Of a stretch of 64,000 nucleotides of DNA, positions 31,098 through 32,493 are shown in pieces. The notes under the pieces were generated by a model. It was given only the letters and a program-made list of their open reading frames with translations, ran no database searches and was not told the origin of the DNA. The stretch lies in NCBI RefSeq assembly GCF_000166055.1, contig NC_014664.1:955927-1019926 (forward strand), given 5' to 3'. Origin of the DNA: Rhodomicrobium vannielii ATCC 17100. Its GTDB lineage: Bacteria > Pseudomonadota > Alphaproteobacteria > Rhizobiales > Rhodomicrobiaceae. The position numbers were made by a program, and so were the translations under genes. Each line of letters opens with the position of its first letter. Within the stretch, counting starts at the first letter, position 1.

Positions 31098-31225
31098 TGG
31101 AGCGGGCGAGGCGATTCGAACGCCCGACCCTAACCTTGGCAAGGTTATGCTCTACCCCTGAGCTACGCCCGCTCTGGCGAGGTGGCAACGTCTTGAAGGA
31201 CGTCGCCGCCGGGTCCGTGACTTAT
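31096..31225 (-). repeat. tRNA-Gly duplication unit B
   Basis: Second copy of the tRNA-Gly plus leader unit described at 30516-30644, same orientation, about 580 bases away. Confidence 0.85.
31098..31172 (-). tRNA. tRNA-Gly (anticodon GCC), copy B
   Basis: Base-for-base identical to copy A over the tRNA, including the encoded CCA (31098-31100). A tandem direct duplication. Confidence 0.96.
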
Positions 31226-31352: not shown

Positions 31353-31715
31353 CTAGCCGCGCCCGGTGAGCCAGTTCATGAACCCCCGGCGTGGCGCGCG
31401 CTCAACCGGCAAGCCCGCCTTTTTCCACGCTTCGATGCCGCCGTCGAGGTTGTAGACCACGGCGCGGGGAGGCAGTTCGCCAGCCAGCTTCTCGCAGGCT
31501 TTCCCGCCGCGCCCGCCGAGCTTGCACATGATGACGAGTTTTTTTCCGGTGTAATCGGGCAACTTTGCGCAACAGACCGTCCCCAGCGGGACGAGCGTCG
31601 CGCCCGCAACATGCTCCGCGGCGTATTCCTGAGGCTCGCGCACATCGACAAGGACAGCGTCGCCGCTTTCGAGCCAGGTGTTCAGCGAAGCGGCATTGAC
31701 GGGTTGAATGGGCAT
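31353..31715 (-). CDS. Rhodanese-like sulfurtransferase
   Basis: 120-residue single rhodanese domain: LVDVREPQEYAAEHVAGA and the catalytic loop Cys64 in IMCKLGGRGGKA, ending with LDGGIEAWKKAGLPV. It transfers sulfane sulfur (persulfide). It begins 28 bases downstream of the SqrR-like repressor on the same strand, so the two form an operon; this context points to sulfide or persulfide handling. Confidence 0.88.
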   Translation of the reverse strand: MPIQPVNAASLNTWLESGDAVLVDVREPQEYAAEHVAGATLVPLGTVCCAKLPDYTGKKLVIMCKLGGRGGKACEKLAGELPPRAVVYNLDGGIEAWKKAGLPVERAPRRGFMNWLTGRG

Positions 31716-31743
31716 GGGACTACCTTAGGGTTTTCTAATGCTT

Positions 31744-32067
31744 TCAGGGGCGACAGTAGATCAGATAGAGCGTCGAGAGCAAGGCGTGAACCTCCATGCT
31801 GCACAGCCGATAATAGACCATCTGGCCACGTTTCTCGGCGCTCACGATGCCGGACTCGCGCAATTTTGCAAGATGCTGAGACACGGCAGACTGCGATAAA
31901 TCAATCACTTCGCACAACTCGCCGACCGACTTTTCTCCGCCGATGAGCTGGCAGAGAATGAGCAGCCGATGCGAGTTCGCGAGCTGCTTCAACATCTCGG
32001 CCGCGGCTTCGGCGTGGCCCTTCATGGCATCCGCCGCCCCCGCGACCGGGGATTCCTCTCGCTTCAT
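31744..32067 (-). CDS. ArsR-family repressor, SqrR/BigR-like persulfide sensor
   Basis: 107-residue winged-helix regulator. The recognition region reads LCEVIDLSQSAVSQHLAKLRESGIV. Cys39 (LLILCQLI) and Cys105 (LYLIYC) sit where SqrR and BigR have their redox pair, which forms a polysulfide bridge on exposure to persulfides and releases DNA. Two further cysteines (52, 89) are present. The adjacent rhodanese and the divergent promoter with a palindrome support a sulfide-responsive repressor. The inducer assignment is inference from family and context. Confidence 0.85.
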   Translation of the reverse strand: MKREESPVAGAADAMKGHAEAAAEMLKQLANSHRLLILCQLIGGEKSVGELCEVIDLSQSAVSQHLAKLRESGIVSAEKRGQMVYYRLCSMEVHALLSTLYLIYCRP

Positions 32068-32068
32068 C

Positions 32069-32096
32069 TTGACACCATATTAGCTGTATCTAATAT
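32069..32096 (+). promoter_or_regulatory. Promoter with embedded ArsR-type operator
   Basis: TTGACA (32069-32074) and TAATAT (32091-32096) are spaced 16 bases apart and point toward the AhpD-like gene. Filling the space is the palindrome ATATTAG-N6-CTAATAT (32077-32096). The position between and over the -35 and -10 boxes is ideal for repression by the adjacent ArsR-family protein, and would also give autoregulation. Confidence 0.78.
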
Positions 32097-32139
32097 ACGA
32101 CAAACACGCTCGCACACAAGCCCCGAAGAAGGATGTCCT

Positions 32140-32493
32140 ATGGAAAAGGATTACGCCGAAATCACGCGCGCCATCTCCGCAAACATGAAGGAACTGCGCA
32201 AGGGCATACCCGAAACGATGCAGGGCTTTAGCGCGCTTGCGGCGGCCGCCACCAAGGACGGCTCGCTCGACAAGAAGACCAAGGAACTCATCGCGCTCGC
32301 GCTTGGCGTGGCCGCACGTTGCGACGGCTGTATCGGCTTCCATTCCGAGGCGCTCGTGAGGCTTGGCGCCACGCGCGAAGAGGTGCTGGAGGTGCTCGGC
32401 ATGGCCATTTACATGGGCGGCGGACCCTCGCTCATGTATGCCGCCGATGCCATTGGCGCTTACGACCAATTCGCCGGCAAGCGCTCCGCCTGA
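32140..32493 (+). CDS. AhpD-like / carboxymuconolactone decarboxylase family protein
   Basis: 117 residues with the alkylhydroperoxidase CxxCxxxH motif (Cys61, Cys64, His68 in RCDGCIGFHSEAL) and the helical core of the AhpD superfamily. Members act as thiol peroxidase adaptors. ATG at 32140 has AAGAAGGA upstream. Divergent from the SqrR-like repressor with the operator in its promoter, so it is probably induced by the same sulfur or oxidative signal. Confidence 0.85.
   Translation: MEKDYAEITRAISANMKELRKGIPETMQGFSALAAAATKDGSLDKKTKELIALALGVAARCDGCIGFHSEALVRLGATREEVLEVLGMAIYMGGGPSLMYAADAIGAYDQFAGKRSA

Follow-up and report, generated by a model that had tools for sequence, protein, structure and literature searches.

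What does an AhpD-like gene do back to back with a repressor of the kind that senses persulfides? AhpD/CMD proteins are usually classed as peroxidases or decarboxylases. In the window, the 64,000-nucleotide stretch of Rhodomicrobium vannielii DNA analysed here (from a genome of one contig, 4,014,469 bases), such a gene diverges from an ArsR-family gene, with 72 bases between the two start codons (table 1). The ArsR gene is the first of an ArsR-rhodanese pair, the rhodanese following on the same strand after a 28-nt gap, as the first-pass annotation had described. Our reading of this arrangement is that the ArsR protein would probably act as a persulfide-released autorepressor, controlling both the rhodanese and the AhpD gene via one shared operator.

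Table 1. Features of the ArsR/AhpD locus, in window coordinates
Feature	Position	Strand	Basis
tRNA-Gly	31098-31172	-	past the rhodanese gene
Rhodanese, single-domain	31353-31715	-	120 aa; Pfam Rhodanese (PF00581) 52.2 bits vs. cut-off 22.2
ArsR-family repressor	31744-32067	-	107 aa; HTH_5 60.9 bits, HTH_metalloreg 85.2 bits; own clade in tree
ArsR start codon	32065-32067	-	ATG in frame at a fixed place in 15/17 distinct divergent loci
AhpD promoter (predicted), TTGACA-N16-TAATAT	32069-32096	+	promoter scan; TTGACA kept in 13/17 divergent loci
Palindromic candidate operator, ATATTAG-N6-CTAATAT	32077-32096		0 mismatches, 7+7 inverted repeat, 6-base spacer
ArsR most likely -10, TAATAT	32082-32077	-	9 nt from ArsR ATG
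AGGA, likely RBS of AhpD gene	32130-32133	+	6 nt before AhpD ATG; read from sequence
AhpD-like, AhpD/CMD fold	32140-32493	+	117 aa; CMD (PF02627) 79.8 bits vs. cut-off 23, ahpD_dom (TIGR00778) 49.4 bits vs. cut-off 27.8

The first-pass annotation had the palindrome occupying part of the AhpD promoter, namely its spacer and -10, and this overlap is indeed what the control region displays. By itself the promoter scan is not significant (1 found vs. 0.6 expected). The palindrome, however, stands above chance, because it is conserved between ArsR and AhpD in 17 distinct loci and because, for the window copy, shuffling the 250 bases upstream 100 times never gave an equal match. Within it, ATTAG-CTGTATCTA-AT agrees with the NolR operator consensus, (A/T)TTAG-N9-A(T/A), as quoted in passages of PMC8960804. 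On the ArsR side the minus-strand TAATAT lies just 9 nt from the ATG, so that the mRNA is probably leaderless or nearly so; reading the sequence by eye, we saw no Shine-Dalgarno before this ATG. The earlier suggestion to look for the palindrome elsewhere in the genome returned no second exact copy in 4.01 Mb, and since places with up to 3 mismatches numbered 24 per strand against 25 in a reversed control, the weaker sites are at chance level and a genome-wide regulon of the palindrome is without support. Two places with 2 mismatches (L002, L003) showed, by eye, no clear sulfur gene start; the latter (G000:C1:3924822-3927841) lies ~650 bases past an Rrf2-like gene, itself after a cysteine-synthase-like ORF (both named by eye).

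Relatives of the AhpD-like protein were drawn from three samples: 61 genomes (the window's own plus relatives), 20 of them with a match at E<=1e-10; a search of genome contigs, represented by the best 80 of at least 513 loci; and an even sample of 192 alphaproteobacterial genomes, where 14, the window's own included, had a match at E<=1e-25. A divergent ArsR gene within 400 bases of AhpD was found in 18 of the 97 labelled AhpD loci, 17 of them distinct (L032, with AhpD and ArsR rows identical to those of L007 and a contig of matching length, was excluded; L001 and L026 are copies of L005). The palindrome lies between the two genes in all 17, with 0 mismatches in 10, 1 in 2, 2 in 4, and 3 in 1, that is, with at most 2 in 16 of 17. 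TTGACA occupies the same place in 13, and in 15 an in-frame ArsR ATG stands 10 nt left of the palindrome, while the distance to the next in-frame start codon varies. The consensus of the control region, TTCAT.TTGAcA.tATATTAG....tgCTAAtaTA.tcaa, reflects a spacing of site, promoter, and start codon that is fixed in most of these loci though the ArsR proteins have otherwise diverged. Fifteen of the 17 also show the rhodanese, and the two without it, L036 and L047, are cut by a contig edge. Two later-found triads outside the 17 (L118 and L121) carry intergenic sites with 2 and 3 mismatches, respectively. Thus, an architecture in which ArsR and AhpD are arranged around one putative operator is strongly supported by its conservation. 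Among these loci, L047 has a truncated ArsR, and the pair at L036:118-833, with a perfect palindrome, sits on a contig binned as Candidatus Omnitrophica, reflecting either transfer or misbinning.

The repressor itself belongs by sequence models to the winged helix-turn-helix ArsR fold (HTH_5 and HTH_metalloreg, both over cut-off), and two of its four cysteines (39, 52, 89, and 105) are placed in helix 2 and in the C-terminal helix, as in the Cys-pair group of SqrR, BigR, YgaV, HlyU, and SoxR. The equation of Cys39 and Cys105 with the persulfide-sensing pair held up: both align with the cysteines of HlyU and YgaV, and with those of SqrR via the ArsR of L045. Both cysteines occur in 49 of 53 ArsR rows aligned from the loci (>55 bits), two of the others being cut short and two lacking the pair; this count excludes the three other ArsR paralogues of the genome and, as rows were found by similarity to the window ArsR, favors the pair. 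The extra cysteines, Cys52 and Cys89, are a further feature of the window protein, and a cysteine at the Cys89 place recurs in several distant divergent loci. Its best solved relatives are 5znx, a "Transcriptional activator" (81.7 bits), HlyU 4k2e (81.4), and 3jth (81.3), followed by YgaV (67.3), SqrR (67.2), and BigR (65).

The label "SqrR/BigR-like repressor" can be retained for the cysteine pair only, the window ArsR being an ortholog of neither and having a clade of its own and a DNA-reading helix of the NolR/HlyU type. In a tree of 34 rows with several long branches (the truncated L047 and L077 and the spurious L027 fragment dropped, near-identical Bradyrhizobium rows thinned), the 16 ArsR rows that come from divergent AhpD loci group together in a single clade (94/98, unstarred). 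Orthology to SqrR is ruled out by this tree, where R. capsulatus SqrR pairs with L028, another gene of the Rhodomicrobium genome (96/85, starred); identity as BigR is ruled out by the tree together with the score against the BigR equivalog NF040642 (83 bits vs. a cut-off of 155). The own paralogue L027 joins the ArsR clade of Bradyrhizobium RND operons (95/93, starred), and a further one, L029, has no Cys pair. With the window ArsR in its own clade, L028 beside SqrR, and L027 in the RND clade, the genome thus holds three Cys-pair ArsRs of three clades, each of which may therefore read its own DNA site. The recognition helices differ between groups: LSQSAVSQHLAKLR in the window ArsR, LSQSA-type in 14 of 18 divergent rows (LSHSA or LSSSA in the others), LRDSTVSQHLALLR in 21/21 RND-operon rows, and LSSAALSQHLGKMR in 10/10 DUF6691 rows. 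The sites upstream vary in parallel, with half-sites ATATTAG, ATATTCG, and ATTTTCG, a result that leans toward the window palindrome, against which they were scored. Concerning the paralogues, L027 is divergent from a HlyD-RND pump pair, as in the Bradyrhizobium clusters (L112:7456-11765; G000:C1:2745455-2749764), with a TonB protein and a haem-type TonB receptor on its other side; the sole AhpD of the subfamily in this genome sits in the window and not at that locus. The SqrR-pairing gene, for its part, and the SQR-like gene of this genome are ~18 kb apart (L113:6946-7383; G000:C1:680415-681680).

How the switch might work can be outlined as follows, ArsR binding, repression, the inducer, and the AhpD reaction being the steps that we infer. 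An ArsR dimer bound to the palindrome would mask elements of two promoters, namely spacer and -10 on the AhpD side and the probable -10 of its own gene, so that AhpD, ArsR, and rhodanese would all be shut off. Upon oxidation of sulfide, for which the genome encodes an SQR-like protein, low-molecular-weight persulfides or polysulfides would arise and link Cys39 to Cys105 through a polysulfide bridge of the sort reported for SqrR and HlyU. With the repressor then off the DNA, all three genes would be expressed, the rhodanese moving sulfane sulfur and the AhpD-like CXXC protein most likely reducing persulfides or polysulfides, or repairing persulfidated thiols. A persulfide or polysulfide as the presumptive inducer is supported by the relatives of ArsR and by the genomic company described below.

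Catalytic residues are conserved in both enzymes. In the rhodanese, the candidate active-site Cys64, in CKLGGRG, together with Gly67 and Arg69, is kept in 22/22 aligned neighbour rhodaneses. The AhpD-like protein (P0003) has as best solved relative 5dik, "Alkyl hydroperoxide reductase AhpD" (152.8 bits, aligned over 110 residues), presumably Lpg0406. Its Glu49, Cys61, Cys64, and His68, which we take to be the residues of M. tuberculosis AhpD, are kept in 97/97 aligned relatives, so that by sequence the Glu/CXXC/His peroxidase site is complete. CMD matches over cut-off number 5 in this genome and fall at four places, but only the window gene belongs to this subfamily (E<=1e-10). Relatives occur in 3 of 4 other genomes of the genus (98, 92, and 87% identical), while the fourth, 88% complete, gave no AhpD match; the nearest named record, Rhodomicrobium sp. 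Az07, is 92% identical.

The retention of the peroxidase site would also fit a different inducer: some other oxidant or electrophile, such as H2O2, organic peroxide, or HOCl, would free ArsR from the DNA, with AhpD as the classical thiol peroxidase of an oxidative-stress switch. A cysteine pair by itself does not fix the inducer; RclX, AhpD-like, is an oxidant-defence gene (PMC7950407), and RexT is an H2O2-sensing ArsR protein (passages of PMC8960804). Yet the cysteines of the window ArsR are at the SqrR/HlyU places and not at the adjacent Cys40/Cys41 described for RexT in those passages, HlyU, which persulfides convert to a tetrasulfide, did not react with H2O2 (passages of PMC10509353), and the recurrent neighbours of AhpD are SQR, rhodanese, and DUF6691 genes. 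We therefore regard an oxidant-driven switch as unlikely and the persulfide-released repressor as the better account.

That company was examined in the best 80 of at least 513 loci. By context, 22 have AhpD at the end of an RND operon, 14 a divergent ArsR, 13 DUF6691, 5 a position after SQR, 2 an ArsR nearby, and 24 none of these. By marker, the fetched stretches contain a Cys-pair ArsR in 45, SQR in 25, a P0002-like rhodanese in 18, and DUF6691 in 13; at least one of the four occurs in 55/80 and none in 25/80, the latter including ten Alteromonadaceae or gammaproteobacterial loci, Legionellaceae, Dyella, and a few cut or low-scoring loci (e.g. L047). These contexts are not independent, because the 80 are the top-ranking part of a set of at least 513, with many from Bradyrhizobium. 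In the RND context, AhpD closes an ArsR-HlyD-RND operon that is usually divergent from an SQR gene; elsewhere it lies beside DUF6691 with a third Cys-pair ArsR clade, or shortly after SQR. Against a solved sulfide-quinone reductase the SQR family reaches 484 bits; against the NCBIfam SQR model (selenoprotein subtype) it reaches 96.6, far under the cut-off of 525. It has a 65% identical relative in the own genome. On the AhpD tree, which is poorly resolved (3/90 inner branches starred), RND and DUF6691 contexts interleave within Bradyrhizobium, which suggests an exchange of one AhpD type between two clusters under sensor control. In a Legionellaceae MAG (L079:3436-6342), AhpD comes after the two genes for cytochrome bd oxidase, an enzyme that resists sulfide (passages of PMC7315123). 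The persulfide switch proposed in the first-pass annotation gains from a single operator kept in distant loci between a Cys-pair ArsR (with its rhodanese) and a divergent AhpD, as well as from an AhpD subfamily that is often beside sulfide and persulfide genes; what it loses is an ArsR orthologous to SqrR or BigR. The recurrence of the arrangement in other bacteria suggests a sulfur-handling role for the AhpD-like enzyme.

The bond between ArsR and AhpD is nonetheless a trait of part of the subfamily, given that the three-gene module occurs in 3 of the 14 AhpD genomes of the even sample (the window's own among the 14) and that 0/17 AhpD loci from other genera in the order (L009-L025) have an ArsR in their 1.5 kb flanks. 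That every AhpD is under the window operator is ruled out, the best upstream match in RND-operon and DUF6691 contexts having 4 to 7 mismatches. The many loci where AhpD has no adjacent ArsR or palindrome would fit another arrangement, in which ArsR controls itself and the rhodanese only, and AhpD, although adjacent, has an independent promoter of its own. This we consider improbable, the palindrome overlapping the AhpD spacer and -10, an overlap kept in distant loci, and AhpD being seen again with two other Cys-pair ArsR clades. At L009, L010, L015, L083, and L086, a palindrome with up to 3 mismatches was found with no ArsR beside AhpD; for two of them, L083:897-916 and L010:1891-1910, the palindrome is perfect or has 1 mismatch, the ArsR-free flanks span ~1 and 1.5 kb, and control may come from elsewhere in the genome. 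An ArsR that responds to metals or arsenic, with AhpD in a resistance role, is most improbable: despite the family-level match to HTH_metalloreg and the joining of AhpD domains to arsenite methyltransferases in some proteins (NF041537, 41.8 bits vs. a cut-off of 510), the metal-sensor model CmtR is far under cut-off (47.6 vs. 150) and the nearest matches of known structure, HlyU, YgaV, SqrR, and BigR, form a non-metal group.

Returning to the persulfide-released repressor, what appears new in it is an AhpD/CMD gene under the control of a Cys-pair ArsR, as the literature that we searched suggests: no paper linking AhpD/CMD proteins to Cys-pair ArsR regulons was found among titles and abstract starts of open-licence articles. 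In its section 2.1, a survey of the genes beside Cys-pair ArsRs (PMC12423496) lists as targets sqr, sox, pdo, rhd, shdr, RND pumps, and TauE- and YeeE-type transporters, and not AhpD, in keeping with the earlier remark that AhpD is no standard member of the SqrR regulon. One AhpD/CMD subfamily would then often be under reactive-sulfur sensors, near SQR, rhodanese, RND pumps, and a DUF6691 gene. We tentatively raise the further possibility, which for now we hold to be doubtful, that this subfamily is a dedicated persulfide/polysulfide reductase (depersulfidase) of sulfide homeostasis, working with rhodanese, maybe resetting the bridged repressor in a feedback loop, and recruited by at least three Cys-pair ArsR clades. 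If AhpD does handle persulfides, a new enzyme class would be added to bacterial sulfide homeostasis, and a simple three-gene system would join sensing, sulfur transfer, and reduction.

Among known systems, the Lpg0406/RclX-type AhpD-like proteins share the CXXC in an AhpD fold; RclX of P. aeruginosa, on the other hand, is under RclR; HOCl and HOSCN induce it, and it gives protection against both (PMC7950407). BigR of Xylella and Acinetobacter is likewise a Cys-pair ArsR repressing a sulfide-detoxification operon, but the window ArsR misses its equivalog model. In A. baumannii, YeeE/YedE and a persulfide dioxygenase are among the BigR targets, and the main text of the paper on that species contains the term "AhpD" 0 times. 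NolR resembles the window ArsR in an operator consensus that fits the palindrome and in a near-identical helix, LSQSALSQHLSKLR, yet has no cysteines and, in passages of PMC8960804, a signal given as unknown. SqrR of R. capsulatus has the same Cys pair, a phototroph host, and a rhodanese among its targets, controlling sqr and a rhodanese gene (passages of PMC9995734); it differs in its recognition helix, TRQAAVSQQLARLR, and in pairing with L028 rather than with the window ArsR. An identity search with SqrR for the R. capsulatus genome, over 385 class and 345 family genomes, gave a best match of 81% and hence not that genome. The main text of PMC9995734 has 0 occurrences of "AhpD" and "carboxymuconolactone"; passages on the SqrR-dependent set of R. 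capsulatus include rcc00528, a "candidate peroxiredoxin" whose fold is not given there, and should it be an AhpD, the novelty of AhpD under such regulators would fall. Vibrio HlyU is the best named solved relative of the window ArsR, with the same Cys pair and a near-identical recognition helix; unlike the repressor proposed here, it is an activator that keeps H-NS off a distant site and binds TAATTCAGACTAAATTA. Finally, YgaV-YgaP of E. coli, with a YgaV recognition helix LSASATSQHLARMR against LSQSAVSQHLAKLR and no divergent AhpD gene in passages of PMC9774250, is alike in having a Cys-pair ArsR followed by a rhodanese in one operon, with YgaV binding its own promoter according to the same passages.
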